DNA of 44,590 nucleotides, taken from an uncultured Acetatifactor sp. GTDB taxonomy: Bacteria; Bacillota; Clostridia; Lachnospirales; Lachnospiraceae. Made by a program: the position numbers and the translations under genes. Of the stretch, positions 21,734 through 39,409 are shown one piece after another; positions within the stretch are counted from its first letter, which is position 1; each line of letters starts with the position of its first letter. The DNA lies in contig CANQCF010000007.1 of NCBI GenBank assembly GCA_947589505.1, positions 1-44,590 of the forward strand, read 5' to 3'. Below the pieces are notes generated by a model. It saw only the letters and a list, made by a program, of their open reading frames with translations. It did not search any database and was not told the origin of the DNA.

Positions 21734-22873
21734 TTAGAGATCCGGGTTCCCCATTCTATCCAGCTTCCGTTTTTTATACGCCTGAAACTCCCCTTTATCC
21801 AGGGAATCCCGGATTTCTTCCATCATGGTGTTGTAAAAGTACAGGTTGTGAAGAACGCAGAGCCGCATTCCCAGCATTTCTTTTGCCTTCAACAGGTGCC
21901 TGATGTAAGCCCGGCTGTATCTGCGGCAGGCAGGGCAGCCGCAGCCCTCTTCAATAGGGCGTGGATCCACCTCATACTTTGCGTTAAAAAGGTTGATTTT
22001 TCCGTGATTTGTATATAAATGGCCATGCCGCCCGTTCCGGGAGGGATATACGCAGTCGAAGAAATCCACGCCCCTTTCCACGCCTTCCAGAATATTGGCC
22101 GGGGTACCAACGCCCATGAGGTAGGTCGGCTTGTCCTTTGGCAGGTACGGGATCGTTTCCTCCAACACGTGATACATCTCCTCATGGCTCTCCCCTACAG
22201 CCAGTCCCCCGACTGCGTACCCGTCCAGATCCAGCTCTGAGATTCTTTTTGCATGCTCAATGCGGATGTCGTCGTAAATTGCCCCCTGATTAATGCCAAA
22301 GAGAAGCTGTTCCCGATTGATGGTATCGTCCCGGGAATTCAGCCGGTTCATTTCCACCCGGCACCTCTCAAGCCATCTTGTTGTCCGGTCCACAGAGGCC
22401 TGCACATAGGCGCGGTCGGCCTTGCTTGGCGCACACTCGTCAAAAGCCATGGCGATTGTGGAAGCCAGATTCGACTGAATCTGCATGCTTTCCTCCGGTC
22501 CCATAAATATCTTCTTCCCGTCTATGTGGGAGTGGAAATAAACGCCTTCTTCTTTAATTTTCCGAAGGCCCGCCAGGGAAAACACCTGAAAGCCGCCGGA
22601 ATCCGTAAGGATCGGCTTATTCCAGCTCATAAATTTCTGAAGGCCTCCCAACTGCTTTACAATCCTATCTCCCGGTCTGACATGCAGATGATAGGTATTG
22701 GAAAGCTGTACCTGGGTCTTCAATCCCTCCAGATCCTCCGTTGACACAGCCCCTTTGATTGCGGCAGCCGTCCCCACATTCATGAACACGGGGGTCTGGA
22801 TATCCCCGTGTACAGTATGAAAGACCGCGCGCTTGGCGCGGCCCTCCGTTTTCAATATTTGATATTCCGCCAT
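21734..22873 (-). CDS. tgt: tRNA-guanine (queuine) transglycosylase
   Basis: 379 residues. Exchanges guanine-34 for the queuosine precursor in tRNAs with GUN anticodons. DSGGFQVFS carries the catalytic aspartate region, DCVYPSRNGRHG the nucleophile region, and C-x-C-x2-C in EGCGCPACRRYSRAY with a later HNLYFY histidine forms the zinc site. The start at 22873 (MAEYQILKTEGRAKRA) is chosen because it matches the family N-terminus and has GGAG upstream. The frame is open to 22918 but would overlap the chemoreceptor. It follows the chemoreceptor stop by 10 bp and so is probably read from that gene's promoter. Confidence 0.96.
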   Translation of the reverse strand: MAEYQILKTEGRAKRAVFHTVHGDIQTPVFMNVGTAAAIKGAVSTEDLEGLKTQVQLSNTYHLHVRPGDRIVKQLGGLQKFMSWNKPILTDSGGFQVFSLAGLRKIKEEGVYFHSHIDGKKIFMGPEESMQIQSNLASTIAMAFDECAPSKADRAYVQASVDRTTRWLERCRVEMNRLNSRDDTINREQLLFGINQGAIYDDIRIEHAKRISELDLDGYAVGGLAVGESHEEMYHVLEETIPYLPKDKPTYLMGVGTPANILEGVERGVDFFDCVYPSRNGRHGHLYTNHGKINLFNAKYEVDPRPIEEGCGCPACRRYSRAYIRHLLKAKEMLGMRLCVLHNLYFYNTMMEEIRDSLDKGEFQAYKKRKLDRMGNPDL

Positions 22874-22883
22874 AATCTCCGCC

Positions 22884-24914
22884 TCATACTTCCAATAAAC
22901 TGTCCACATTGGACTCATCCACCACGCTGGATCTGCACTTCATATTATCGGTGGGAAGTTTTTCCCCGCTGACCAGAGAATTATACATCCACACGACCGG
23001 ATCATGTCCCTGCCCGAAGGGATCCTGACCGATAGCGGCGGCAATAATCCCTTTCTTGATATACCGGAAGATCTCCTGGGAATGATCGAATACCACCAGC
23101 TTGATCTTCAGCCCGCTCTCTTCGACAGCCCTTGCCACCGCAATGGGGGTTCCCGTCGTCACATAAATACCGTTCACCTCAGAATGAACATTCAGATATT
23201 CCTTCATCTGGCGATAGGTGTCCTCCTCATAATACTCCGCCGCCAAAACGTCTAACTTTATGCCCTTGCAGCTCTCCATGCACTTCTGGAAGACGTCGCT
23301 TCTGACACAGTTTGTCCCCACCTCACGGCTTCCTTCAAGGACGAGCACATTTCCCCTTTTCTTCAGAACGTTCCCCATGAGCTTCGCAGCCAGGGCTGCC
23401 GCATCCGCCACATCCGGCTGGAAGACGGCATCTCGAAGGCTCTGTTCTTCGATATCGTTGTTGATCAGGTAGACCTTTTTTCCCATTGCGCGAACCTTCT
23501 CAACAAGAGACTGAACATTGCCAACGACAAATCCCGGCATAACGTAACCGTCGAAATCCTCCGCTATCATCGCTTCCATGGTTCCGCCCTTGTCCCGCAC
23601 CACGGCATTCCAGTCCTCAAAACCGTGATAGCGCACTTCGGCCCCCTGGGACTCCAGTTCCTTTTTCGCATAAATGGCGCCCCTGCGGACGGAATGCCAG
23701 AAGTCATTGTCGTCCATACAGATAAACCCGATCTTTAATTTTCTGCCGGCCCTGCCCTTTATGGGTTCCACGGCGGTGGTAAACTGGCGCAGAAGCTTTT
23801 CCAGGCCGTTGAGCATGGAGTTCAGGGAACCCACATTCTTAATAATATTTTGGGACACCTCCGAAGACTGTCCGGAAACCCGGGAAATCTCCCGGCTTCC
23901 CGAGTTGATTTCTTCGGAGTTCAGATATGCCTGTTCCGCTCGGTTCTTTGTCTCAACGGAATTTCTCGTGATCCCCCCGATCTCCGCGAGGATATTCTGC
24001 ATCCTGTCGTTGATCACTCCGGCCTGTTCGTCGATGGTGCGGAAAGAAGCGCTCACCGCGTCAAATTCCTTGCGGCTCTCGTCAAACATTTCCACGCTGT
24101 CGCGGATGCACTGGTTTACCTGCTTGCTGCTCTCTATCACGTTCGCAAGGATCTCGTCAATGGTGCCGATGCCCTCCTGAGTCTTGGTGGACATAACGCC
24201 CATCTCCTTTGCCACCACCGCGAAACCGCTTCCGGCGGCCCCCACCCGGGCAGCCTCAATGGACGCGTTCAGGGCAAGCATCCTGAGGGACTGGCTGATA
24301 CCCACGATAAAGGATCCAATCTCATTGATCTCGCTGATTTTGGTGCTGAATTCCCGCAGGATCTTCTCGCTCTGCTCCAGATTGTCGGATACCGTCTTCA
24401 TGTTGCGCTCATAAGTTTCCATGCTGACCACACCGGATTTGCAGCTCTCGACAGACTGCTCCAGCAGATCCCCGATCTCCTTTACGGATCCGTCAATCTC
24501 CGTCAGACGGCCCGTGTTGTCCACAATCAGATCCAGACAGGATTTCACGAGATCATACTGCTCTTCCACCTTTGCGACCACCGTAGAGAGACTCTCGGAA
24601 ATACGACGGCTCCCCTCCTGATTCTGCTCCGCACCCTGGGATAGGACGTCGATGGCGTCCGAAAGTGTGACCGCATTGACCTTTGTGGACTCCAGGAAGG
24701 TCTGCATATTATTCTTGATGACGTTCAGCGCCCCCGCCAGTACGGCTACGGAACTGTTCTGTTTTTCCGCTTCGAGATCTTCCAGATCCATCCTGCGGCG
24801 CTTTATCAGTTCTGCGTGTTTCATCAGAGCCTTCTTCTGCCGGGCATCCCGGAAGATATAATACAACAAAGCTAAAATGACAAGCGCTTCCAAAACGATC
24901 AAAAATGTTTTCAC
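22884..24914 (-). CDS. Chemoreceptor signalling domain fused to a sugar-binding-protein domain
   Basis: 676 residues, GTG start at 24914 behind GAGGAG. Order: one membrane helix (about 3-21) followed by basic RDARQKK; a long helical hairpin (about 50-380) of the methyl-accepting chemotaxis type with its tip near 213-240; then a periplasmic-binding-protein fold (about 390-660), starting LKIGFICMDDNDFWHSVRRG and containing VMPGFVV, VYLINND, VLVLEGSREVGT and VVFDHS, as in sugar-binding proteins of the Peripla_BP_4 type. The basic flank after the helix and the absence of a second helix place both domains in the cytoplasm. The tip reads SIEAARVGAAGSGFAVVAKEMG. It differs from the usual EAARAGExGxGFAVVAxEVR at the conserved Glu and Arg that help contact CheA/CheW. 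tgt follows 10 bp later. Domain calls are firm, topology and function inferred. Confidence 0.9.
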   Translation of the reverse strand: MKTFLIVLEALVILALLYYIFRDARQKKALMKHAELIKRRRMDLEDLEAEKQNSSVAVLAGALNVIKNNMQTFLESTKVNAVTLSDAIDVLSQGAEQNQEGSRRISESLSTVVAKVEEQYDLVKSCLDLIVDNTGRLTEIDGSVKEIGDLLEQSVESCKSGVVSMETYERNMKTVSDNLEQSEKILREFSTKISEINEIGSFIVGISQSLRMLALNASIEAARVGAAGSGFAVVAKEMGVMSTKTQEGIGTIDEILANVIESSKQVNQCIRDSVEMFDESRKEFDAVSASFRTIDEQAGVINDRMQNILAEIGGITRNSVETKNRAEQAYLNSEEINSGSREISRVSGQSSEVSQNIIKNVGSLNSMLNGLEKLLRQFTTAVEPIKGRAGRKLKIGFICMDDNDFWHSVRRGAIYAKKELESQGAEVRYHGFEDWNAVVRDKGGTMEAMIAEDFDGYVMPGFVVGNVQSLVEKVRAMGKKVYLINNDIEEQSLRDAVFQPDVADAAALAAKLMGNVLKKRGNVLVLEGSREVGTNCVRSDVFQKCMESCKGIKLDVLAAEYYEEDTYRQMKEYLNVHSEVNGIYVTTGTPIAVARAVEESGLKIKLVVFDHSQEIFRYIKKGIIAAAIGQDPFGQGHDPVVWMYNSLVSGEKLPTDNMKCRSSVVDESNVDSLLEV

Positions 24915-24960
24915 GTGCTCTCTCCTCTATGCGTACAACAATTCCACAGCAGCCATAGAT

Positions 24961-24989
24961 ATTGTAACATCTTTTTCCCGAACATTCAA
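24961..24989 (-). promoter_or_regulatory. Sigma-A promoter for the chemoreceptor-tgt genes
   Basis: Minus strand: -35 TTGAAT (24984-24989), 17-bp spacer, -10 TACAAT (24961-24966). Not a flagellar sigma-D type promoter. Its -35 box is 12 bp from the -35 box of the divergent aroC promoter. Confidence 0.75.
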
Positions 24990-25189: not shown

Positions 25190-26293
25190 ATGGCCGGATC
25201 GTCTTACGGAACCATATTTCGGATCACAACCTGGGGGGAATCCCACGGGAAAGCTCTGGGCGTTGTGATTGACGGCTGCCCCGCCGGACTGGAGCTGGAG
25301 GAAGAGGATATCCAGCGCTATCTGGACCGCCGGAAACCCGGGACCAGCGCCCTGACCACCCAGCGGAAAGAGGATGACACCGTCGAGATCCTCTCCGGAG
25401 TCTTTGAGGGTCGAACCACCGGAACCCCCATATCGCTTCTGGTGCGCAATACCTCCCAGATTTCAAAAGATTACAGTGATATCGCCTCCTGCTATCGCCC
25501 CGGCCACGCAGATTACACCTTTGACGCGAAATACGGGTTCAGAGACTACCGGGGAGGCGGCCGATCCTCCGGCCGGGAGACCATAGGACGCGTCGCCGCC
25601 GGCGCCGTGGCCTGCAAAATCCTGGAGCAGCTGGGGATCCGGGTGAGAGCATACACCCGTGCCATCGGCCCGGTAGAGATCGACCCCTCCCGCTATGAAG
25701 AGACTCTGCGCCTTTCCACTCCCACCGCCATGCCGGACGCCGAGGCCAATGAAAAAGCCCGAGACTACCTTGCGCAGGCCCGGGAAAAGGGCGATTCCGT
25801 GGGCGGCTGCATGGAGTGTCTGGTGGACGGGCTCCCCGCCGGCATCGGCGATCCCGTATTTGAAAAACTGGACGCCAATCTGGCGAAGGCGGCAATGTCC
25901 ATCGGCGCCGTAAAGGCGGTGGAGATCGGCGACGGAAGCCTCGTCTCCAGACGATGCGGCAGCGAAAATAACGACGCGTTTTTCTGCGCGGCGGACGGCA
26001 GCGTGACAAAGCTGACAAATCACGCCGGCGGGATCCTTGGCGGTATCAGCGACGGCTCCCAGCTGGTGGTGAGGGCCTATGTGAAACCCACGCCCTCCAT
26101 CTATCAGCCCCAGAAGACCGTAAACCAGTCCCACGAAAATATCGAGATCCAGATCCGGGGACGGCACGATCCCATCATCGTCCCCCGGGCCGTTGTTGTT
26201 TTCGAATGCATGACGGCCATTACCGTGCTGGACGCCATGATGCTGAATATGTCTGCAAAGCTGGACAGTCTGGAAAAATTCTACAGAAATTGA
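25190..26293 (+). CDS. aroC: Chorismate synthase
   Basis: 367 residues, normal length. Converts EPSP to chorismate, the last common step of aromatic amino acid synthesis, using reduced FMN. It starts SSYGTIFRITTWGESHG, then has RRKPG, the signature GGGRSSGRETIGRVAAGA, and AGGILGGISDGSQ with VKPTPSI, which are the FMN- and substrate-binding regions. GAGAGG precedes the ATG. It is the only plus-strand housekeeping gene in the window and stands alone, without other shikimate genes. It converges on the SGNH gene at 26355. Confidence 0.97.
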   Translation: MAGSSYGTIFRITTWGESHGKALGVVIDGCPAGLELEEEDIQRYLDRRKPGTSALTTQRKEDDTVEILSGVFEGRTTGTPISLLVRNTSQISKDYSDIASCYRPGHADYTFDAKYGFRDYRGGGRSSGRETIGRVAAGAVACKILEQLGIRVRAYTRAIGPVEIDPSRYEETLRLSTPTAMPDAEANEKARDYLAQAREKGDSVGGCMECLVDGLPAGIGDPVFEKLDANLAKAAMSIGAVKAVEIGDGSLVSRRCGSENNDAFFCAADGSVTKLTNHAGGILGGISDGSQLVVRAYVKPTPSIYQPQKTVNQSHENIEIQIRGRHDPIIVPRAVVVFECMTAITVLDAMMLNMSAKLDSLEKFYRN

Positions 26294-26354: not shown

Positions 26355-27761
26355 TTAAAACCCTCGCACCGCCGTCACTTTTTCCAAAAAGGAATCATAG
26401 GTCACACAGGTCAGGGCACAATCCCCTTGATAGGCGTCTTTTCCAAGCATGATATTTTCCGGGTGAAAAGTGCCTCCATACCACAGCCTGATGCTGTCGT
26501 ACTTGTTCAGATCGCAGATCACTTCCGGCGTGCCAATGACATTTTCCTGGATTTTCGTGAGTTTTCCGTCCCTGTATATCCATTTTCCGCCCGAAAGATA
26601 TTCTTCATACTTCATGCCTAAAGGTTCTAAAATCTTAAAATAGTCCGTCTCCGTATAAAGGAAGTCCCCGTCCAGACTCACCACGGTAACACCGTCCGAA
26701 AACCGGGTCAGTTCTGATATATACTCGTAAGGATTGTCCGTTGTCGTAAGGATTTGTCCCACCCTGGAGTTCTCATACCAACGCAGATCCTCATCCCACT
26801 GCCAGTACCTGTCATCCCCCCGGTGATCCAGCAGATCATATTTTTCAGTAAGTTCCATACCGATATAAGATGTCAGTTTCTCCGCGCCATAGACATTCAG
26901 ATGAAAAACATCCGCAAAATCATTTTGCAGGTCAATTCCCACTTCATTCAACATTTTATTATAATTAGTAAAGGAATAATTTCCGGCCGAAAGCATTTCT
27001 TCCGCCGCATTCAAAATCAGCTGATTCTCTCTAGTCTCAGCAAATGGAATCACGATAAATTCTATTTTAGAGCCATGTTCCTCAGCAAGTGCAATCACAT
27101 CCTCCAGCCATTTCCGATTTTTTTCACTCAGCTCTACAATGGTCCGGTCATTTAAGGCATCCGGATCCGACCAAGAGCCGTTCTTATCCCACTCAAAATA
27201 CTCTCCTCTGCCAAATAAATTAGGAGCATAATTCAGAAAATCATATTTTTTTAGTTCCCTGTATCGCGTATGAATAATCGGAAAACGCAGGTAATACGCT
27301 TCCCTGTCTTCCTCTTCGATATATTTATTTACCAGGGCGACAGAATTCGAAGATATTCTCAGGGACAGATAGTTCCTGTAAACATTTGCCTCCACGTCAT
27401 GACGATCGAATAGAAGGGCATAGAGATCCACATAGATTACCGAAGGGCTCTGCGTCTTGTAGAGTTCCACAAGATCGTGGTATGCCGAGTCCTTATCCTG
27501 TCCGGATACTGCCAAATCAAACGCGGCGATTCCATAATTGCGCCACAGCACATAAGGATGAATTCCACAGTAGCAATGACTGCTTCCCACAAAGACAACG
27601 TCGATCAGATTCTCAGGCGTCGCATACAGCTGTTCCACGGAGGAAAGATATTCCCCGGTTGTGTCTTTCCACTTCAGCGCCCTGTAGGCGAAAATGATCA
27701 GCAATCCTAAGATTGCGAAGAAACACAGGCATTTTATCGCGTACAAAAATTTAGTTTTCAT
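26355..27761 (-). CDS. SGNH/DltD-AlgJ-like membrane-anchored protein, copy 1
   Basis: 468 residues. A single N-terminal helix (about 7-27) anchors an extracellular domain. The motif VFVGSSHCYCGIHP (about 56-69) is the serine block of SGNH hydrolases. A second block, DVFHLNVYGAEKL, near residue 290, supplies the Asp-x-x-His pair. Between them are YVDLYAL and IEFIVIPFAE. Such proteins serve as partners of MBOAT proteins in O-acylating secreted glycans (the DltD, AlgJ and AlgX type). The C-terminal third (about 330-468), with a WYENS motif, is shared only with its paralogue at 31341-32744, to which it is closely similar throughout. It is last in the run starting with the MBOAT gene, 53 bp after manC. 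AT-rich relative to manC, fcl and gmd. Confidence 0.82.
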   Translation of the reverse strand: MKTKFLYAIKCLCFFAILGLLIIFAYRALKWKDTTGEYLSSVEQLYATPENLIDVVFVGSSHCYCGIHPYVLWRNYGIAAFDLAVSGQDKDSAYHDLVELYKTQSPSVIYVDLYALLFDRHDVEANVYRNYLSLRISSNSVALVNKYIEEEDREAYYLRFPIIHTRYRELKKYDFLNYAPNLFGRGEYFEWDKNGSWSDPDALNDRTIVELSEKNRKWLEDVIALAEEHGSKIEFIVIPFAETRENQLILNAAEEMLSAGNYSFTNYNKMLNEVGIDLQNDFADVFHLNVYGAEKLTSYIGMELTEKYDLLDHRGDDRYWQWDEDLRWYENSRVGQILTTTDNPYEYISELTRFSDGVTVVSLDGDFLYTETDYFKILEPLGMKYEEYLSGGKWIYRDGKLTKIQENVIGTPEVICDLNKYDSIRLWYGGTFHPENIMLGKDAYQGDCALTCVTYDSFLEKVTAVRGF

Positions 27762-27814: not shown

Positions 27815-29134
27815 TTACTTCAGACAAAGCGGATGTTTTTCCTTGTCCAGTACGCTGATTTCTTTTCCGATCTGAACCTCTATCAGCTTCAGTTCCGTAT
27901 CCGCAAAGACCGTGTGCCTGCAGCCGGCCGGCATGGACAGCACATCCCCGGGACATACCTTTTTCTTTACGCCATCGAGAACGGCATGTCCCTCTCCGCT
28001 GATCGCCACCCAAACCTCATCCCGGTTTTTATGGTTGTGATAATTCATGGAATTTCCGGCGTTGAGCGTCACTTTTATGGTCATGCTTCCATTCTCCACG
28101 TCGATCACCTGAAATCTTCCCCAGCTCTTCTCCGCGAACATGATCTGCTGGTCCATTTCATCCACAAACGGCTTGATATAGGAGCTCTGCTCTTTGTCAC
28201 TTACAAGAATACCATCGGGCGAGGCAGAAATCACTACATCCTTCAGCCCCATGGCCAGCACCGGCACATCCATCTCGTTCACGATGTGAACATTGCTGCA
28301 GATATCATTCATAACGCCTTTCCCGATAATCTTGTCGTTCATGGCTTCCGTCAGGGTATTCCAGGTCCCCAGATCCTTCCAGAGTCCCGAAAAGCGCATC
28401 ACCTGAATCCGCGGTTCCTTCTCCACTACGGCAAAGTCAAAGGAAATGCGCGGCAGGGAATCATACCGTTCCAGCAAATCCTGATAACCCTTATAATGCA
28501 GGAGATCCACCGCCTTCTCCAGCACATACTTCAGCTGAAACGCAAAGACTCCTCCGTTCCACAGCGCGCCCTGCCTGATATAATTGCGCGCGGTTTCGGC
28601 ATCCGGCTTTTCCCGGAACTTTTTCACGGCAGAAATATTTTCATCCGTCTCCGGAAGAATATACCCATATTTTTCAGAAGGATACGTGGGCTCCATACCG
28701 AGAAGCACCAGCTTGGCTTCCCCCTTTCTCGCCTGTCCGTCCAGATCGGACAGGGCCCGGAAATAATCCTCCTCCACATAGGGATCCACCGGACAGATCA
28801 CTACATATTCCTCCGGATCAATTCCCATGACATCCACCAGGTACGCGACTGCCAAAACAATCGCCGGAAACGTATCTCTGCGGCTGGGTTCCACTGAAAG
28901 GCTGATATCCCCTCCAAGCTGGCTGTGTATGGAAGAAACCTGTTTCACACTGGTGGCAATCGTGACGGTTGCCTCCGGATTCAGCTTACGGATTTGCCGA
29001 TACATTCTCTGTATCATGGACTCATAGTTCCCGTCAGCGCCCTGAAACAGCTTCAGAAACTGCTTGCTTCGCACGTCGTTGCTCAGCGGCCAAAGTCGTT
29101 TTCCTGAACCGCCGGATAATAAGATCACATTCAT
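27815..29134 (-). CDS. manC: Mannose-1-phosphate guanylyltransferase with C-terminal cupin
   Basis: 439 residues. Makes GDP-mannose from mannose-1-phosphate and GTP. The nucleotidyltransferase signature LSGGSGKRLWPLSND is at the N-terminus. The expected PKQF that follows is SKQF here. VEPSRRDTFPAI and GYILPE are further family motifs. The C-terminal cupin (about 320-430) contains NYHNHKNRDEVWVAISGEG, the metal-binding His pattern of the type II phosphomannose isomerase part, so the protein may also interconvert fructose-6-P and mannose-6-P. It is slightly shorter than the common 460-480 residues. It supplies substrate to gmd and fcl just upstream in the operon. No phosphomannomutase gene is in the window. 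Confidence 0.92.
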   Translation of the reverse strand: MNVILLSGGSGKRLWPLSNDVRSKQFLKLFQGADGNYESMIQRMYRQIRKLNPEATVTIATSVKQVSSIHSQLGGDISLSVEPSRRDTFPAIVLAVAYLVDVMGIDPEEYVVICPVDPYVEEDYFRALSDLDGQARKGEAKLVLLGMEPTYPSEKYGYILPETDENISAVKKFREKPDAETARNYIRQGALWNGGVFAFQLKYVLEKAVDLLHYKGYQDLLERYDSLPRISFDFAVVEKEPRIQVMRFSGLWKDLGTWNTLTEAMNDKIIGKGVMNDICSNVHIVNEMDVPVLAMGLKDVVISASPDGILVSDKEQSSYIKPFVDEMDQQIMFAEKSWGRFQVIDVENGSMTIKVTLNAGNSMNYHNHKNRDEVWVAISGEGHAVLDGVKKKVCPGDVLSMPAGCRHTVFADTELKLIEVQIGKEISVLDKEKHPLCLK

Positions 29135-29179
29135 ACATCCGCCCCTGTTGGTCCTCTTTTTTTCGGGACCGTCCCTTTC

Positions 29180-30121
29180 CTATCTCTCCGCCCGCATGGG
29201 ATTCTTCAGGAAATCTTCATAGCTGAGCCGTATTCCATCCTCCAGCTCCGTCTTGTACTTCCATCCCAGTTTTTCCGCCTTACTCACATCCAGAAGTTTC
29301 CTGGGAGTCCCGTTGGGTTTCGTCACATCCCATTCGATCCTGCCCTTATAGCCTACAACCTTTGCAACCAGCTCCGTCAGTTCCCTGATACTCAGCTCCT
29401 TGCCCGTCCCCGCATTTACCGTCTCATTGCCGCTGTAATGATTCATAAGGAAGACACAGAGATCAGCCAGATCGTCGACATACAGGAACTCTCTCAGCGG
29501 ACTGCCGTCCCCCCAGCAGGTGACACATTCCTTTCCCTCCGTTTTCGCCTCGTGAAAACGCCGGATCAGGGCCGGGAGCACATGGGAATGGGTGGGGTGG
29601 TAATTATCATTCGGCCCATAGAGGTTCGTAGGCATCACGGAGATATAATCCGTGCCGTACTGACGGTTTAAAAACTCGCAGTATTTCAGCCCGGAAATCT
29701 TTGCAAGAGCATATGCTTCATTGGTCTTCTCCAGCTCGCCGGTCAGCAGACAGCTTTCCGGCATGGGCTGGGGCGCAAGCCTGGGATATATGCAGGAGGA
29801 TCCCAGAAATTCCAGCTTTTTGCAGTTGTTCTTCCAAGCGGAATGGATCACGTTCATCTCCAGGATCATGTTGTCATACAGAAAATCGGCAAGGGCTTCC
29901 GCATTGGCCTGGATCCCTCCCACCTTCGCTGCGGCAAGAAAGACGTACTCCGGCTTTTCCTCTTCAAAAAAAGCCTCCACCGCATCCTGCCTGCACAGAT
30001 CCAGCTCTTTATGGGTTCTGGTCACAATATTCGTGTATCCCTGGCGGTTCAGTTCCCGCACAATGGCGGAACCCACCATTCCCCTGTGGCCCGCCACATA
30101 GATCTTCGCATTTTTCTCCAT
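29180..30121 (-). CDS. fcl: GDP-L-fucose synthase
   Basis: 313 residues, a short-chain dehydrogenase that epimerises and reduces GDP-4-keto-6-deoxymannose to GDP-L-fucose with NADPH. The N-terminal nucleotide motif is [21 protein letters not shown] and the YALAK Tyr-x3-Lys pair are catalytic. [20 protein letters not shown] is highly typical of this family. It lies 37 bp after gmd and 45 bp before manC. The ribosome site is weak (AAAGGA at long spacing), so coupling to gmd may matter. Confidence 0.95.
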
Positions 30122-30158
30122 CTTTTTCTCAGTTCCTTTCTCAGTTCGGTTTGTTTTC

Positions 30159-31250
30159 CTATTTCACAATTCCCTTTTCCAGATATTCCACCAGGTTCAT
30201 GCGGATATGATCTTCCGCGCGCTCCACGGCAACCTTCTCCATATCGTGCTTTACCATTCGCTCCACCAGCTCCTCAAAGCTGGTTTTTGTGGGGTTCCAG
30301 CACAGTTTTGTCTTTGCCTTGGTCGGATCTCCCAGAAGATTGACGACATCCGTCGGCCTGTAAAAGTCCTCAGACACCTCCACAAGCACCCTTCCGGTGG
30401 CCTTGTCCACGCCCTTCTCCTGCTGTCCCGCGCCCTGCCATTCCAGTTCGATGCCGGCGCAGCGGAAAGCAAGGGTTGCGAATTCCCTGACGGAATGCTG
30501 TACTCCAGTGGCAATCACAAAATCTTCCGGCTCATCGTTCTGAAGCATCAGCCACATGCACTCTACATAATCCTTTGCATATCCCCAGTCCCGAAGGGAG
30601 TCCAGGTTGCCGAGATAGAGCTTGTCCTGTTTGCCCTGGGCAATCCGTGCCGCCGCCAGGGAAATCTTTCTCGTCACAAAGGTCTCTCCCCTTCTCTCGC
30701 TCTCATGGTTAAACAGGATACCGGAACAGCAGAACATGCCGTAGGCTTCCCGATATTCCTTCACGATCCAGAAACCATATTGTTTTGCAACCGCGTAGGG
30801 GCTGTATGGATGAAAGGGCGTCGTCTCGCTTTGGGGAACCTCCTCCACCTTACCGTAAAGCTCCGAGGTGCTGGCCTGATAAATCCTGCAGCTTTTTTCC
30901 AGGCCGCAGGCCCGGACCGCCTCCAGCAGACGAAGCACGCCGGTGGCATCCACATCCGCCGTATATTCCGGGACATCAAAGGACACCTGTACATGACTCT
31001 GCGCCGCCAAATTATAGATTTCATCCGGTCTCGCCAATCCAACAGCCTTTACCAGACTTATGGAATCTCCGAGATCACCGTATAACAGGTGGAAGCGGGG
31101 ATTGCCCTCCAGATGAAAAATTCTCTCCCGATAGTCCACTGAGGAGCGCCGGATCAGTCCATAAACCTCATAGCCTTTTTCCAGCAGGAACTCAGATAAA
31201 TAGGAACCATCCTGACCGGTAACACCGGTGATCAATGCTTTCTTTGACAT
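30159..31250 (-). CDS. gmd: GDP-mannose 4,6-dehydratase
   Basis: 363 residues. Converts GDP-mannose to GDP-4-keto-6-deoxymannose. The NAD(P) motif is [50 protein letters not shown], the YAVAK catalytic pair and [17 protein letters not shown] follow in family order. AAGGAGG precedes the ATG. With manC and fcl it completes GDP-mannose to GDP-L-fucose. The intermediate could also feed GDP-rhamnose, but the presence of fcl favours fucose. Confidence 0.97.
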
Positions 31251-31340: not shown

Positions 31341-32744
31341 TTAAAATTGACGGCACACCGCCATTTTCTCCAAAATTGTGTCGTATGTTGCGAAAGTCAG
31401 AGGAGAAGAACCTTGATAGGTCTTTCTTCCCATCGCGATATTTTCCGGATTCATAGGGCCCTCATAAGCTATTTTTATTCTGTCGTAGCGGCTGAAATCA
31501 TAATACGTCTCCGCGCCTATTCTATTTTCCGAAATTTTTTCCAGGCGGCCATCCCGATAAATCCATTTTCCGCCCGTGCGATATTCCTCATAATTCATCC
31601 CCAAAGGCTCCAGAACTTCAAAATAATCGATTTCTGAATTCAGGAAATCTCCGTCCAGACTCACCAATGTAATACAGTCCGACAAGTCCGTCATTACAGA
31701 TACATATTCACGGGGATCCACTGTCTCCGACATGCGTTGGCATGCCAGAGTATTCTCATACCATTTCAGATCGGTGTCCCATTGCCAGTACCTTTCATCT
31801 CCCCTGTGATCCGGCAGATCATATTTTTTAACCAGCTCCTCCCCCAGTAGCGAGGTCAGCTTTTGCGCTCCATAGACATTCAGATGTTCTGCATCCGCAA
31901 AATCTTTTTGAAAATCCATACCCAATTGATCCGTCATCCGATTATAATCCGTATAAGCATAATTTTCTTTCGCCAGCATTTCTTCAGCGGCATTTAAGAT
32001 TGCCTGTTCCTCCGCTCCCACCGGAAAGGGAATCACGATAAATTCAATCCTGCTGTTATGCTCTTCCGCCAGGGCGATCATGTTTTCCAGCCATTCCCGG
32101 TTTTTCTCACTGAGATCCCCGACAGCCGGATCATTCACTATGTCCAGATCCAGCCAGGATTCTCCCGCCCTGCAGGTAATATACTCTCCTCTGCCAAAGG
32201 AGTTTGGCGCATACTCCACAAAATCATTTTTCTGAAGTTCCCGATACCGGGTGTGGATAATCGGGAAACGCAGATAAAATGCTTCCCTGTCTTCTTCCTC
32301 GACATATTTGTTCACTAGGGCAATAGAATTCGGGGAAGTTTTCAGCGAAAGGTAATTCCTGTATACATTTGACACCACAAGCTGTTTATCGTATGACAGC
32401 GCGTGCAGATCCACATAGATAACCGAAGGATTCTGCGTCTTATAAAGTTCTATCAGATCATGATAAGCGGAATTCTTATCCTGGCTGGAAACAGACATGT
32501 CAAAGGAAGCTATTCCATACTTTTCCCAAAGTACTGCCGGTTGGATTCCAAAATAACAATGGCTGCTCCCTACGAACACCACGTCGATCAGGCCTTCCGG
32601 CGTGGAATACAGCTGCTCCACAGAGGACAGATATTCTCCCGTTGTATCTTTCCATTTCAATGCGTTATACGCGGAACTGATCAACAGTGCCAAAATAACA
32701 AAAAAACAAACACATTTTGTACAATATGAGAGACCTTTTTTCAT
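31341..32744 (-). CDS. SGNH/DltD-AlgJ-like membrane-anchored protein, copy 2
   Basis: 467 residues and closely similar, end to end, to the protein at 26355-27761. Shared stretches include ALKWKDTTGEYLSSVEQLY, RFPIIHTRYREL and HRGDERYWQWD-type segments. SGNH blocks are kept: VFVGSSHCYFGIQP (serine) and DAEHLNVYGAQKL (Asp/His). The start is placed at 32744, 10 bp after the MBOAT stop, because the frame upstream (to 32801) overlaps the MBOAT gene and the paralogue begins at the equivalent Met. Its location directly behind the MBOAT gene is the usual arrangement of an O-acylation pair. It is likely an extracellular acyltransferase partner. The acyl group and target glycan are unknown. Confidence 0.83.
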   Translation of the reverse strand: MKKGLSYCTKCVCFFVILALLISSAYNALKWKDTTGEYLSSVEQLYSTPEGLIDVVFVGSSHCYFGIQPAVLWEKYGIASFDMSVSSQDKNSAYHDLIELYKTQNPSVIYVDLHALSYDKQLVVSNVYRNYLSLKTSPNSIALVNKYVEEEDREAFYLRFPIIHTRYRELQKNDFVEYAPNSFGRGEYITCRAGESWLDLDIVNDPAVGDLSEKNREWLENMIALAEEHNSRIEFIVIPFPVGAEEQAILNAAEEMLAKENYAYTDYNRMTDQLGMDFQKDFADAEHLNVYGAQKLTSLLGEELVKKYDLPDHRGDERYWQWDTDLKWYENTLACQRMSETVDPREYVSVMTDLSDCITLVSLDGDFLNSEIDYFEVLEPLGMNYEEYRTGGKWIYRDGRLEKISENRIGAETYYDFSRYDRIKIAYEGPMNPENIAMGRKTYQGSSPLTFATYDTILEKMAVCRQF

Positions 32745-32754
32745 ACCCGCCCCG

Positions 32755-34239
32755 TTAAAAATTAAAGTATATGAACTGGCTGGAATCAAAATCAACGCCA
32801 TACACTCCGTAAACGATCACGGAAAGCGCTAACCCATACATTACCAGCCAGCGGAAAACAAGATTCTGCCTGCAGAGGACTTCTCCTAGGTTAACGCCCT
32901 TCCAATATCTCACAATGTCCACAATGACAAGAACCAACAGGGCCGCCAGCAGGATCAGATGTTCCCGCCTGTCAATTCCATAGTTAAAAAGACTCTCATC
33001 AAAAATCACCCAGGGATTCCACCGCAGGAATAGATTTTTGACATAAAGAACCGCCCTGTCTATGGACTCCGCCCGGAAAAAGATCCAGGCAAAGGATGTC
33101 AGCGCAAAGGTGACCGCCATTTGGCCCAGCCGGAAACTGAACACATCCCTCTTGACCTGAAGCAGGTTCAGCACTTTCTCCCGAATCGGTTTCAGAAGAT
33201 CACCGGCCACTCGGTAGAACCCATGAATCATTCCCCAGGCCACATAGGTCCACGCCGCGCCGTGCCATAAACCGCTGCATATAAAAGTTATCATCAGGTT
33301 GACATATTTTCGAAACTTTGATTTGCGGTTCCCGCCCAGAGGAATATAGAGATAATCCCGGAACCAGGTGCTGAGGGAGATATGCCATCTCCTCCAGAAA
33401 TCTGCGATGCTCGTGGCAAAATAAGGAGTGTTGAAATTTTCCATCAGGTCGAAGCCCATTACTTTTGCAGCCCCGATCGCGATGGCCGAATATCCGCCAA
33501 AATCACAATAAATCTGGATTGCGAACCCAACGGCGCCCAATACGGCCTCAACCGTACCAATCGCATAGTATTGTTCAAACACCCCATTTACAAAAAGGGC
33601 AACTCTGTCCGCAATCACCATTTTCATAAACATGCCCCACAGCATCATAATAAAACCCTGGGTCATTGCAGCCGGGGACATAAGCCTTTTTTCTTTCACC
33701 TCATGAATCTGCCGAAACAGATTTTTGCTTCTCTCAATGGGACCGGCGACCAGCTGGGGGAAAAAGGAGACAAAGAGGGCATACTGCAGGAAATTGCGCT
33801 CCGCCCTGCAGTCTCCCCTATATACGTCCACCATATATCCCAGGGCCTGAAAGGTATAAAAAGAAATTCCCACAGGAAGAAGAATGTCAAATGGGTTTTG
33901 TATCACCTGAATGGAGAAAGCAGCTAGAATCTTATTGAGATTGTTCAGGGCAAAATCAAAGTACTTAAAGAAAAACAGGACGCCCAGATTCAGGGCAAAA
34001 CCGCCGAACATCACCCATTTCTTCGCATTTCTGCTCTTCAGCTTTTCAATCAAAAGGCCTGCCGTATAGGTAACCACGGTGGAAAAAACAATCAGGGCCG
34101 CATATTTGACATTCCAGCACATATAAAAATAATAGCTGGCGATCAGCAGCCAGACACACCTCAGCTTTCTGGGGATGACGGCATAAATCAATGTCACAAT
34201 AGGGAAAAAAATCCAAAAGTCAATGGAATTAAAAATCAT
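32755..34239 (-). CDS. MBOAT family O-acyltransferase (AlgI/DltB-like)
   Basis: 494 residues, polytopic. It starts MIFNSIDFWIFFPIVTLIYAV as in AlgI-like proteins. Core motifs are LLPVGISFYTFQALGYMVDVYRG, FFPQLVAGPIERSKN, the re-entrant region FWRRWHISLSTWFRDYLYIPLGGNR, and the catalytic-histidine motif GLWHGAAWTYVAWGMIHG. These proteins pass an acyl group, usually acetyl, across the membrane to a partner that places it on a secreted polymer. The SGNH genes at 31341 and 26355 are the obvious partners. The gene heads the operon from promoter 34322-34351. AT-rich compared with the Mrp genes beside it. Confidence 0.95.
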   Translation of the reverse strand: MIFNSIDFWIFFPIVTLIYAVIPRKLRCVWLLIASYYFYMCWNVKYAALIVFSTVVTYTAGLLIEKLKSRNAKKWVMFGGFALNLGVLFFFKYFDFALNNLNKILAAFSIQVIQNPFDILLPVGISFYTFQALGYMVDVYRGDCRAERNFLQYALFVSFFPQLVAGPIERSKNLFRQIHEVKEKRLMSPAAMTQGFIMMLWGMFMKMVIADRVALFVNGVFEQYYAIGTVEAVLGAVGFAIQIYCDFGGYSAIAIGAAKVMGFDLMENFNTPYFATSIADFWRRWHISLSTWFRDYLYIPLGGNRKSKFRKYVNLMITFICSGLWHGAAWTYVAWGMIHGFYRVAGDLLKPIREKVLNLLQVKRDVFSFRLGQMAVTFALTSFAWIFFRAESIDRAVLYVKNLFLRWNPWVIFDESLFNYGIDRREHLILLAALLVLVIVDIVRYWKGVNLGEVLCRQNLVFRWLVMYGLALSVIVYGVYGVDFDSSQFIYFNF

Positions 34240-35858: not shown

Positions 35859-37910
35859 CTAAAGCAAAATGTAGATCAAAGTAGCGCACAATCCGATTCC
35901 AAAGAGCATCAGCCCGAAGGATAAGCTCCTGGAGATAATGTCGCCGTCCTCTCTCAGCTCCATGTGTTTCATGGCAAAGACATGCACATAATCCCTGCCC
36001 GGTTCCGGCTCCCGGCCCGAAAACCGGTTCCGCAGACGGCAGAAGGCGTTGGCAAGCCGCCCGGCCGTCTCCGTGAGAAGATTGCCCTCCGTCCTCTCCG
36101 CCGGCAGGGGGGAATCCCGGAGCAGGGTCCTCCGCAAGAGCTCTGCCATTCCGTCCACAAAGCTGTCCAGGATCCGGGAGGCCACGCCGCCCACCAGGGG
36201 AAGGCCCTTAAGCACCAGCGGACGATAGACCAGTTCCTCCAGATCCAGGCGCCTGGGCCAGCAGTTCTTGTAGCCGCTCTTCCTGTCATAGAGGAAGACC
36301 CGGATGCCGCCAAAATAGACCACAGCCCCCACCGCCAGCGTCACCACGGCTCCCTGCAGGCTTTCCCAGGAAAAGTATGCCGCCGCTTCCCCGGCGGTTT
36401 CCGATACGCCTAAGAAGCCCTGGGCAAAACCAGCCGCCCGCTCCATCAGCCCGTGGGGGAAAAGCCCCCACACAAACAGCGCTGCCCCGCTGACCGTAAG
36501 CGCCGCGCCGTTGTCAAAACTCAGATATTTCTTTTTTCGATCATAAATCGCCTGGAGCCCGGCGTCCGCATTTTTTTCGATAAAGATCGACACAAACAAT
36601 TTTGTCATATAGGCCAGGGTCAGACCGCCGCTCAGCAGAAAGACGATCTCCGCTCCCCGGATCCAGGGCGCGCTCCCATAGGCCAGGATGCTCTCGTGCA
36701 GCAGGGTTTTGCTGACATAGCCCCCAAACAGAGGAATTCCCGAAATCGCCAGACCGCCGATCAGGAACAGGATCTTCAAAAGAGGCTTTTTCCGCCCAAA
36801 GCCCCGGATCCGGTTTAAGTCCAGCCCGTGGGTATTCTGAAAGATCGCTCCCGCCGCCAGAAAGAGCAATAATTTAATCAGGGAGTGGTTCGCCATGTGG
36901 AGGAAAACTCCCCGGGCGGCGACGCCGTTTCCCTCTCCCAGAAGCGTCATCATTCCCGCGCCTACGAGGATAAAGCCGATCTGGGACATGGAGGAACAGG
37001 CCAGTGTCCTCTTTAAATCTATAGAAAAGACCGCCAGCAGGGCTCCCAAAAACATCGTGAGGACGCCGATCATCAAGAGGATCCTCCCCCAGGTCCCGTT
37101 TCCCGAGAACAATCTGACAGATATCACCAATATACCAAAGATCCCCGTCTTTGTCAAAATCCCGGACAGGAGCGCGGAGGCCGGTGCCGGTGCCACGGGG
37201 TGGGCCTTAGGGAGCCAGATGTGCAGGGGAAAAGCGCCCGCCTTCGCTCCAAATCCCACGAGCATACAGAGTCCGGCCGCAAACAAAATCTCCTGGTTCC
37301 GGCTGACCTGAGCGGCCGTCCTGATCCCGTCAAAATCCAGCGTCCCCAGCTCATGGTACAATAGAAACAATCCCATGAGCAGGACCATGCCGCCGATCAC
37401 CGCCACCGCCAGGTAAGTGCCCGCCGCCCGCAGGGCCTCCCGGGACTCCTCCTGGGCCACCCACACATAGGAAGTAAAGGACATGATCTCAAAAAACAGA
37501 AAGAGCGTAAAGAGGTCCTGGGAGAAAAAGACGCCCATGGTGGCTCCGAGGGTCAGCAGCATGAATGCGTAAAAGCGCATTTTATTCGAGTGTCCCTGAA
37601 AATAGGCCCTGGAAAAAACCGTGGCCGCCAGCCACATAAAGGCCGTGATGATCCCGTACAGCCCCCGGAAACCGTCCAGCTGAAAGCTCAGCCCGAATCC
37701 GCAGAGATCCCTGACATACGCCCGGATCGTGCCTCCGGCCGCAAGGCCCCCGACATTCCGCGCGGTCAGATACACCGCCAGTCCAAACTCCAGCACCAGA
37801 AACAGATCCGCGAAAACCACCCTGGCCCGCTCTCTCTTCTCCCCCAGGCAGGCGATGACCGCCGCCCCGAGAAATGGCCCGAATATCAGAAAGTATAAAA
37901 TCACACCCAT
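35859..37910 (-). CDS. Mrp/complex-I-like antiporter subunit 4 (ND5-like, long C-terminus)
   Basis: 683 residues. About 14 core helices of the proton-translocating ND4/ND5/MrpD family are followed by a further helix, a long amphipathic cytoplasmic stretch (about 540-660) and a final helix, a layout like ND5/NuoL or the long Mbh/Hyf-type subunits. Channel residues are kept: Glu in FLFFEIMS, Lys in GFGAKAGAFPLHIWLPKAHP, Lys in GILTKTGIF and Lys in HSLIKLLLF. The start at 37910 is set by AGGAGG and the sequence MGVILYFLIFG. The frame is open to 38033 but would overlap the preceding gene. It is the fourth such subunit in the operon and the last before MATE. Confidence 0.93.
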   Translation of the reverse strand: MGVILYFLIFGPFLGAAVIACLGEKRERARVVFADLFLVLEFGLAVYLTARNVGGLAAGGTIRAYVRDLCGFGLSFQLDGFRGLYGIITAFMWLAATVFSRAYFQGHSNKMRFYAFMLLTLGATMGVFFSQDLFTLFLFFEIMSFTSYVWVAQEESREALRAAGTYLAVAVIGGMVLLMGLFLLYHELGTLDFDGIRTAAQVSRNQEILFAAGLCMLVGFGAKAGAFPLHIWLPKAHPVAPAPASALLSGILTKTGIFGILVISVRLFSGNGTWGRILLMIGVLTMFLGALLAVFSIDLKRTLACSSMSQIGFILVGAGMMTLLGEGNGVAARGVFLHMANHSLIKLLLFLAAGAIFQNTHGLDLNRIRGFGRKKPLLKILFLIGGLAISGIPLFGGYVSKTLLHESILAYGSAPWIRGAEIVFLLSGGLTLAYMTKLFVSIFIEKNADAGLQAIYDRKKKYLSFDNGAALTVSGAALFVWGLFPHGLMERAAGFAQGFLGVSETAGEAAAYFSWESLQGAVVTLAVGAVVYFGGIRVFLYDRKSGYKNCWPRRLDLEELVYRPLVLKGLPLVGGVASRILDSFVDGMAELLRRTLLRDSPLPAERTEGNLLTETAGRLANAFCRLRNRFSGREPEPGRDYVHVFAMKHMELREDGDIISRSLSFGLMLFGIGLCATLIYILL

Positions 37911-37921
37911 TGCCTTGCCTC

Positions 37922-39397
37922 CTAAAACGCCGAATAGACCACGTCCCCGATCAAATCTGTCAGGAGTTCCGGCCGAAGCCCAATCAGGACCATCACCGCC
38001 GCAAAAATACACAGGGGAAGCAGCATCTTCCACCCCGGGTCCGAGACCTCCCCCAGACTGTCATAGCGAAAATCCTGGCCCGGGAAAAAGGCCCTCACAG
38101 AAATGCCCAGCATATAGACAGCCGTGAGGAGCGCCGAAATCATCAGCGCCGCGATGCCCAGATAGGAAAGGAGCCCGCCCTCCGCCACCGCGGCCTTGGC
38201 AAGATACCACTTGCTGACAAAACCCGTGAGTCCCGGCACTCCCATCAGGGCCATCCCGGAGACCGTAAAGAGCAGAAAGACTGTGGGCATCTTTCTCCCC
38301 AGGCCGTCCAACTGGTGCACGTAAGTCCGCTCCGTCCGATAGATCACCGCCCCCGCGCAGAAGAAAGAACAGATCTTCATCACCGCGTGGCACACCATAT
38401 GACAGAGCGCTCCCATGAGCCCCAGGGGGGACATCATAGTCACGCCGAATAAAATATACGAGAGATTGCTCACCGTAGACCAGGCCAGCCGGCGCTTGAG
38501 ATGAGTCTCCTTCAGCGCCCTGCTGCAGCCATAAACTACCGTAAAGATCGTCAGCGCCGTCAGCACCTTCTGGGCCCAGGTGCCTCTAAGGAGCGCCGTG
38601 CCGAAGATAAAGTACGTCACGCGGATATTGGCGAAGGCCCCCGCCTTTACCACCGCCACAGCGTGCAGAAGGGCCGTCACCGGCGTGGGCGCCACACCGG
38701 CCTTGGGAAGCCATGCGCTGAAAGGAAACATCGCCGCTTTCACGCTGAAACCGCAGAAGCAGATCACATAAATCAGCAGCATCAGTCCCCGCTTATCCCC
38801 TAAGACAGCCGCATCCAGCACACCCCCGGGAGTGAAATCCGCCGTGTTTCCGTAGACCAGGATAAAGATCATGCCGATAAAGGCGAAGGCCGCACCGCCC
38901 AGGGAATACCAGAGATAAGTCCTTCCGGCGCGGATCGCCTCCTTCGTCAGCGTGTGCATGACCAAGGGCACCGTCACCAGGGTGAGCATCTCATAAAAGA
39001 AATACAGCGTCACCAGATCCTCTGCCATAGAGATCCCCAGCGTCACCCCGTAGGTCATCACATAGAACATAAAGAAGACCCTCTCGTGCTTCTCATGGGT
39101 CATATACTCAAAGGAATACAAGGTGGCCAGCGGCCAGAGAAAGGCGACGAGCGCGGTGAACACGCTTCCCACGGCATCCAGCCGGAAACTGATGCTGAGC
39201 TGCCCGGTAAACCGGAAAAGTGTGAATGCTCCGGCGGGCCTGTTCAGGATCAAAAGAAAGGCCAGGGCGGAGGTCAGCAGGACCACGCCTTCCGTATAGA
39301 TCATCATCGCGCCCCTCTTTTTCCAGGGGATGACAGGGATCCCTGCGCCCCCGATCAGAGGAAGCAGTACGGCGACCACTAAAAAAACTTCCCTCAT
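37922..39397 (-). CDS. Mrp/complex-I-like antiporter subunit 3 (ND4/MrpD-like)
   Basis: 491 residues, about 14 helices. Conserved channel residues: Glu in LYFFYEMLT, Lys in GFSVKAAMFPFSAWLPKAG, Lys in AVAVVKAGAF and Lys in HAVMKICSF. Compared with its neighbours, the TM7 region reads PFSAWLP instead of the usual HAWLP or HIWLP, losing the His, and SVKAAM replaces GAKAGM. AAGGAGG precedes the ATG, 12 bp after the previous gene. It presumably conducts H+ or contributes to cation/H+ exchange in the membrane complex. Confidence 0.92.
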   Translation of the reverse strand: MREVFLVVAVLLPLIGGAGIPVIPWKKRGAMMIYTEGVVLLTSALAFLLILNRPAGAFTLFRFTGQLSISFRLDAVGSVFTALVAFLWPLATLYSFEYMTHEKHERVFFMFYVMTYGVTLGISMAEDLVTLYFFYEMLTLVTVPLVMHTLTKEAIRAGRTYLWYSLGGAAFAFIGMIFILVYGNTADFTPGGVLDAAVLGDKRGLMLLIYVICFCGFSVKAAMFPFSAWLPKAGVAPTPVTALLHAVAVVKAGAFANIRVTYFIFGTALLRGTWAQKVLTALTIFTVVYGCSRALKETHLKRRLAWSTVSNLSYILFGVTMMSPLGLMGALCHMVCHAVMKICSFFCAGAVIYRTERTYVHQLDGLGRKMPTVFLLFTVSGMALMGVPGLTGFVSKWYLAKAAVAEGGLLSYLGIAALMISALLTAVYMLGISVRAFFPGQDFRYDSLGEVSDPGWKMLLPLCIFAAVMVLIGLRPELLTDLIGDVVYSAF

Positions 39398-39409
39398 TTT
39401 TTATCCTCC

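Follow-up and report, generated by a model that had tools for sequence, protein, structure and literature searches.

Research on chemotaxis receptors has mostly treated them as sensors of the cell's surroundings. Receptors in the cytoplasm and sensors at the C-terminus are already known: in the accessible parts of the sources, Helicobacter pylori TlpD is described as soluble, with a CZB domain at its C-terminus as the sensor, and further cytoplasmic receptors ending in a CZB domain are reported as well (PMC12871147, preprint; PMC13001251). The statement in a preliminary description of the present locus that known chemoreceptors place the sensor outside was therefore too general. The locus lies in a 44,590-nt stretch of an uncultured Acetatifactor sp. 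genome (contig CANQCF010000007.1; hereafter the window), where a gene on the minus strand (22884..24914, GTG start) encodes a methyl-accepting chemotaxis protein (MCP) of 676 residues. The protein comprises a membrane helix, a possible degenerate HAMP stretch, an MCP hairpin and a C-terminal Peripla_BP_4 domain. Judging from the sequence, there is a reasonable probability that it is a membrane-anchored chemoreceptor whose ligand-binding domain, a cytoplasmic sugar-binding-protein fold, follows the signalling hairpin at its C-terminal end. Such a receptor would probably report on sugar or metabolite levels within the cell itself and not on those outside.

Domain order and side of the membrane

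Pfam analysis placed MCPsignal (PF00015) at residues 165-317, with 72.4 bits against a curated cut-off of 34.6, and Peripla_BP_4 (PF13407; profile positions 9-254 of 258) at residues 402-647, with 105.5 bits against 35.1. In a sequence search of the PDB, the Thermotoga MCP 2ch7 matched residues 82-365 and the sugar-binding protein 6gq0 matched residues 402-655 (E 3e-16). Thus, the antiparallel hairpin covers about residues 73-380 (23775..24698, limits estimated; all features of the gene are on the minus strand). Its tip, a variant of the CheA/CheW-binding tip and the most conserved part of the protein, occupies residues 206-246 (24177..24299), and the sugar-binding-protein-type domain occupies residues 393-676 (22887..23738). 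A single N-terminal membrane helix (residues 3-21; 24852..24908) is followed by RDARQKK and by a juxtamembrane stretch (residues 26-72; 24699..24839) that would be the place of a HAMP domain. HAMP gave no match in the window receptor at E <= 1, and two of ten relatives scanned had sub-threshold matches (L143, 0.029; L144, 0.019). The C-terminus contained no CZB domain at E <= 1 in Pfam; Peripla_BP_4 was found there instead. These matches bear out the order of helix, signalling hairpin and C-terminal sugar-binding-protein fold given in the preliminary description.

Relatives were searched for in 138 genomes of the same genus, using a profile of four orthologs, and in a class-wide draw of 391 genomes, both at E <= 1e-40. 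At most eight candidates per genome were scored in the former, three in the latter and 19 in the search that found G049, so the counts are lower bounds. At least 13 of the 138 genomes (own included) carried an ortholog, each in a single frame without stops and covering at least 675 of the 677 model positions; the other 12 proteins were 39-95% identical to the window protein in end-to-end alignment. In the class draw, at least 44 of the 391 genomes (own included) gave matches. Those in 20 genomes besides our own covered both domains and fell into seven other families (f31, f46, f50, f60, f72, f76 and f86); the rest were plain MCP or plain binding-domain matches, and a partial match in G429 (63-523) was excluded from the 20. 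G049, representing another family of the same order, added one more both-domain match. MCPsignal followed by Peripla_BP_4 was confirmed by Pfam in all ten relatives scanned, two of them from the same genus. The search for this domain order in other genomes thus succeeded, with at least nine families of the class showing it.

These genomes also bear on the possibility that an assembly error or a frameshift had joined two separate genes. It is exceedingly improbable and was ruled out, because both domains lie in one stop-free frame in 12 other same-genus genomes, both-domain matches came from 21 more, and Pfam confirmed the order in every relative scanned. In a genome-contig scan, one of whose two patterns lay in the hairpin, the matches listed were mostly plain MCPs; none of the 80 loci of named organisms among them had the fusion, and L044 had a separate binding-protein open reading frame (ORF). 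Viral contigs contained no relative of the sugar-binding domain, and plasmids gave no match for the relative L133 at E <= 1e-30. Two f76 genomes, G380 and G246, each had two receptor paralogs close by on the same strand (L202, L216), suggesting that the receptor family expanded there.

Helices were called with a simple hydropathy threshold in place of a trained predictor, and each protein was read from its longest frame or from the start given by alignment. Residues 3-21 were the sole strongly hydrophobic segment of the window receptor. The highest 19-residue mean was 0.52 for segments starting at residues 350-400 and 1.11 after residue 400, and no second membrane helix was found at about residues 380-395. 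The 20 residues past the helix contained nine Lys or Arg (net charge +7), and the net charge ahead of it was +1. All 13 same-genus proteins had one helix, with four to nine Lys or Arg within 20 residues after it and net charges of +3 to +7 after versus 0 to +1 before. In 21 of the 25 wider relatives, the N-terminus carried a pair of helices joined by an outer loop of 1-20 residues; such a short hairpin brings the chain back to the side where it began. Two more (L137 and L138, stop-to-stop frames of 648 and 653 residues) had no helix and no visible export signal. L140 was cut by the contig end, and L142 showed three helices from its longest start and two from an inner start. At this threshold, no hydrophobic segment followed the tip in any of the 38 family proteins. 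The two-helix relatives with their short loops and the two helix-free relatives make a cytoplasmic sensor very likely and, given the basic residues after the helix, the cytoplasm is the side that fits all family members. Together, the data strongly support the earlier proposal that hairpin and sugar-binding domain both face the cytoplasm.

The opposite orientation, with the helix as a reversed anchor and both domains outside the cell, was also considered. The N-terminus is short, like a signal anchor, and sugar-binding proteins of the Peripla_BP_4 kind are usually extracytoplasmic (see also PMC9602780). We judged this placement very unlikely, however, since the charge distribution and both the two-helix and the helix-free relatives speak against it and the conserved signalling tip would serve nothing outside.

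The C-terminal domain and its possible ligand

In the part of the survey available, Peripla_BP_4 proteins of model strains were assigned to sugars (PMC9602780). In the receptor family, D402, N403, F405, W406, D610, Q630 and D631 were invariant in all 13 same-genus proteins. The matching stretches of 6gq0 read DNDYW, FD and QEP, so that D-N-D-[FY]-W, FD and Q are common to both. The ratio of nonsynonymous to synonymous substitution rates (dN/dS) of the domain was 0.09, 0.03 and 0.19 in three pairs of genes.

A domain that no longer binds a ligand, and instead anchors or scaffolds the array in an otherwise ordinary receptor, would explain why, among the long parts of the protein, this one shows the lowest conservation (66% identity among 11 close same-genus proteins). 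The N-D pair of the classical pocket, a ribose-binding-protein motif, also seems to be replaced by G-T near residue 588. Loss of binding is nevertheless quite improbable in view of the low dN/dS values and of the seven invariant residues, six of which (D402, N403, F405, W406, D610 and Q630) match motifs of 6gq0.

The sequence weakly points to sugars or related metabolites as the ligand class. Among 19 wider gene neighbourhoods viewed, a clear lead was seen in G049 alone. There, an ordinary-tip family member (L212) is followed on the same strand by genes for a LacI regulator, UxaC, UxuA and a short-chain dehydrogenase. The position of this receptor beside genes of intracellular hexuronate catabolism points to hexuronates as the ligand of the G049 member.

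Signalling tip, chemosensory genes and output

Tip positions are given in what we take to be Tsr numbering, anchored at N381 = N216 of the window receptor. The tip is changed at Q374 (S209), T375 (L210), N376 (R211), E391 (A226), R394 (S229) and R404 (G239), and it keeps N381, E385, R388, F396, V398 and E402. For comparison, 63 distinct background tips were matched from 127 loci, 80 of which had been found via hairpin or juxtamembrane patterns. The tip pattern demands N381 and E385 and restricts position 402 to E or Q; therefore, only the remaining positions are informative. Position 375 was T in all 63 tips, 391 was acidic in 61, 394 was basic in 59 and 404 was basic in 49. The 14 tips with a non-basic 404 included three of the five other MCPs of the own genome, all five of which had an acidic 391 and a basic 394; L019 was the single background tip missing both 394 and 404. 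The preliminary description had noted the loss of a conserved Glu and Arg, which holds for E391 and R404, and had left the changes at R394, Q374, T375 and N376 unmentioned.

The variant is shared by close relatives. The 11 close proteins had A or S at 391 and G or E at 404. In the two divergent same-genus members, G024 and G087, position 391 is Q and position 394 is K or R, indicating that A/S at 391 together with S at 394 is specific to the 11. A tree of the 38 proteins (midpoint root; the tool warned that long branches meet) contained a strongly supported split that sets 13 proteins, most of them with ordinary tips, apart from 25 comprising the window's clade and the branches f31-g78 and f76. 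These two branches have T375L, N376K and R404N in common. The acidic 391 and basic 394 are kept in f31-g78 and in one f76 pair; the other f76 pair (L135, L136) has I at 394. The tip core was 95% identical among the 11 close proteins, compared with the 66% of the sugar-binding domain. In three pairs, two of them between flagellin-free genomes, nonsynonymous differences per site (pN) in the tip were 0.000, 0.007 and 0.000, with synonymous differences (pS) of 0.22, 0.66 and 0.60. The tip variant is thus not a product of decay. A mere structural scaffold, one role proposed earlier for the hairpin, is unlikely for a tip almost free of amino-acid change.

We then surveyed the partner genes. In the own genome (G000, 87.6% complete), CheW domains were identified by profile and the other che genes were named by sequence likeness. 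CheB-, CheA-, CheW-, CheC-, CheD- and sigma-factor-like genes formed one cluster downstream of flhA. A CheV-like gene lay on another contig, and there were four flagellin-domain matches and five other MCPs. CheW-domain genes were present in all 34 family-bearing genomes tested. Among the 138 same-genus genomes, flagellin was absent from 22 (20 listed, two by elimination), CheW domains from 16 and MCPs from 12. Nine genomes had CheW domains and no flagellin, and eight of them carried the ortholog, the exception being G117 (86% complete). None of the 13 genomes lacking both had it, and five of the 116 flagellin-bearing genomes did; the flagellin call in one of these, G147, was a single weaker match (E 4e-16). 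The eight flagellin-free carriers (84-100% complete) also lacked FlhA, which was found in the five other carriers (as two pieces in G118). As the eight form one fully supported tree branch, flagellin loss with retention of the ortholog may represent one event and not eight; the association rests on this clade, in a sample in which many genomes are incomplete.

Three flagellin-free carriers (G076, G018 and G138) had an intact cheY-cheB-cheA-cheW-cheC-cheD-sigma run, in which Pfam confirmed six of the seven genes in G076 (all but cheD). In two others (G011 and G129), motifs recovered the run except cheW and cheC, and CheW domains were detected there by profile. In three pairs, CheY had pN of 0.046-0.060 and pS of 0.60-0.80; a fourth pair gave 0.004 and 0.15, respectively. 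At L159, L161 and L163 (G076, G018 and G138, respectively), flagellin and FlhA are thus gone while a che operon of the flagellar type persists, sigma-factor-like gene included. In G018, the cheY-like gene was preceded, at a distance of about 3.4 kb, by a gene for an HD_5-domain protein. The idea that the window-type receptor is the sole receptor of the flagellin-free species was rejected, because each of the six carriers examined (of eight) had other MCPs with ordinary tips; the tip pattern gave no tip in 5 of the 28 loci considered.

In all five of the eight flagellin-free carriers examined for it, another, ordinary-tip MCP was encoded within a few kb of a same-strand type IV pilus run (L165, L166/L217, L219, L220 and L221 in G138, G076, G018, G071 and G011, respectively). 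The run in G076 contained, by Pfam, two T2SSE ATPases, T2SSF, an N_methyl pilin, a prepilin peptidase and PilM; the T2SSE pair would be a PilB-like protein and a 353-residue protein that we label PilT-like by inference. The pilus genes of the other four genomes were recognised by motif. Two further ORFs separated MCP and pilus genes in G076, and one small ORF did so in G018. A CheV-like frame with a CheW domain (312-373 residues) was located 6-7 kb from the pilus-side MCP in all five, and its receiver domain was confirmed in G138. This arrangement suggests that the retained che pathway steers type IV pili, and perhaps twitching, in the flagellin-free relatives; the MCP concerned is another receptor, and its position does not show that the window-type receptor acts on pili.

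Methylation sites varied within the family. The window receptor had one strict methylation string, which abuts the tip (residues 242-251). Strict sites were present in two of the five other MCPs of the own genome, and 8 of 10 selected loci of other MCPs had them too. Nine of the 38 family proteins had one, seven of them 105 residues past the turn, like most other MCPs examined. In L127 and L135, which belong to the window's branch, the site was 119 residues past the turn; the difference suggests that the second hairpin arm of this branch holds two more heptads.

A receptor for an internal metabolite that is coupled to CheA is the likeliest reading of these data, and its coupling to CheA is moderately supported. 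Several points weigh against the reading as a whole. No background tip lacks all three of E391, R394 and R404, as the window tip does, and position 375 is L where every background tip has T. The methylation consensus, strict or loose, did not occur 50-165 residues from the turn of the window receptor. CheA and CheW genes are no proof of coupling, because the same genomes encode other MCPs with ordinary tips. The flanking genes of the window receptor, aroC and tgt (described below), give no clue to its ligand.

The same cytoplasmic sensor might have a tip that no longer drives CheA through CheW and instead acts on another partner, such as a regulator bound by the hairpin, or CheV on its own. 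The changes at E391, R394, R404, T375 and N376 in a highly conserved variant, three of which recur in f31-g78 and f76 at the same positions, would suit such a switch. Another output would also have a precedent in Escherichia coli Tls, according to the available text a receptor-like protein that holds FlhDC (PMC12623472). In E. coli core-unit simulations, the strong CheW contacts of the receptor were E402, R404 and R394 as far as the accessible text goes (PMC6954272), and a similar part of another source discusses E402/R404 and R394 for the Thermotoga array (PMC6746300). The window tip keeps E402 and has lost the two Arg, whose presence is a typical more than a defining feature. The loss of R404 alone is a weak argument, as three of the five other MCPs of the own genome lack it too, and with 14 of 63 background tips non-basic there, the inference of a non-CheW partner from this residue is weakened. 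Further evidence against a switch is that N381, E385, R388, F396 and V398 are also kept, that every family-bearing genome tested has CheW-domain genes, and that the ortholog is absent from all 13 same-genus genomes lacking both flagellin and CheW. With CheA-, CheW- and CheV-like genes present in the own genome, the different signalling partner suggested in the preliminary description was not established, and we regard it as somewhat doubtful.

For the CheA-coupled receptor, we propose the following mechanism. The C-terminal domain would close its two lobes on a metabolite present inside the cell, such as a monosaccharide, a sugar acid or a related compound. Since this domain is predicted to hang next to the membrane-proximal bundle, where the second hairpin arm ends, closure would make the four helices of the bundle pack differently, and this difference would propagate to the tip. 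The lineage-specific variant tip, in or beside an array with CheA and CheW (perhaps CheV), would then set CheA activity. As a lead on the output, swimming would be controlled in the window's organism, given its flagellar genes, and type IV pili may be the target in the relatives that kept che genes after losing flagellin and FlhA. A wider version is tentative: a class-wide family could feed the internal sugar or sugar-acid state into the CheA pathway, with one branch using a dedicated tip, and flagella-less species keeping this branch and the entire che operon but re-aiming the pathway at type IV pili, so that metabolic state steers twitching instead of swimming. If the proposal is true, metabolism-linked taxis gains, in a widespread receptor type with a transport-type binding domain, a defined molecular sensor that responds to the metabolite as such instead of to its effect on cell energy. 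What a tip must keep for CheA and CheW, and how a flagellar chemotaxis operon outlasts flagella, are put to a natural test by the variant tip together with the relatives that lack flagellar genes.

The locus and its relation to known systems

The ribosome-binding site of the receptor gene, GAGGAGAG (24920..24927, minus strand), was read directly 5 nt ahead of the GTG. A promoter-like site on the same strand (TTGAAT-17-TACAAT, with TG ahead of the second hexamer; 24961..24989) precedes the start codon by about 46 nt; it is a match to the consensus alone, and four such sites were found in the scanned stretch against 1.9 expected. Ten nucleotides past the receptor stop is the likely start of a gene that we take, from its sequence, to be tgt (queuine tRNA-ribosyltransferase; 21734..22873, minus strand); it is probably co-transcribed with the receptor gene. 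The divergent neighbour (25190..26293, plus strand) is presumably aroC (chorismate synthase). Downstream tgt was found for all 11 close proteins, and the order aroC (divergent)-receptor-tgt was kept in all ten close loci spanning both sides (own included in each count). Neither gene was near the receptor in G024 and G087 within the stretches scanned. The whole-gene dN/dS of the receptor was 0.079, 0.029 and 0.038 in three pairs.

Elsewhere in the window, 26355-27761 and 31341-32801 encode two similar proteins with the near-identical segment WKDTTGEYLSSVEQLY. They flank genes at 27815-31250 that, from our own reading of the sequence, presumably serve GDP-mannose/GDP-fucose synthesis. Three large, adjacent or overlapping ORFs on the minus strand (35859-40918) would, on the same kind of reading, be membrane subunits of a proton-pumping complex.

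In the part of a survey of 82,277 chemoreceptors by ligand domain that was available, a table of plant-associated receptors contains one Peripla_BP_5 cluster with one sequence (PMC8547431), indicating that binding-protein-type domains have been met in receptors before. Among titles and abstract openings, with most subscription journals outside reach, we recognised no account of an MCP with a C-terminal sugar-binding-protein domain. Compared with TlpD, as far as the available text describes it, the window receptor likewise has an intracellular sensor at the C-terminal end of the hairpin and no canonical methylation sites. TlpD differs in being fully soluble; it has a PAS domain at the N-terminus, a helical zinc-binding domain and a hairpin roughly half as long as that of Tsr, whereas the window receptor has a membrane helix, an apparently longer hairpin and a sugar-binding-protein domain. 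Tls is, in the part of its source available, a receptor-like protein with a non-chemotactic output, as the proposed switch of partner would imply here (PMC12623472); the likeness is one of output, and nothing seen for the window receptor points to a sequestered regulator. Like Tsr/Tar and Thermotoga 2ch7, the window receptor has an MCPsignal hairpin, and it keeps some of the core residues of the tip. In those receptors, however, the sensor precedes the hairpin in the chain and lies outside, flanked by two helices, and the tip and methylation sites are canonical. LacI-family regulators offer a parallel for a sugar-binding-protein fold that reads a metabolite inside the cell; there the fold is joined to a DNA-binding domain, and here it is joined to a chemotaxis hairpin. 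The domain itself resembles Peripla_BP_4 proteins such as 6gq0 in its D-N-D-[FY]-W, FD and Q motifs, but sugar-binding proteins of that kind are separate, normally exported and not fused to a receptor.

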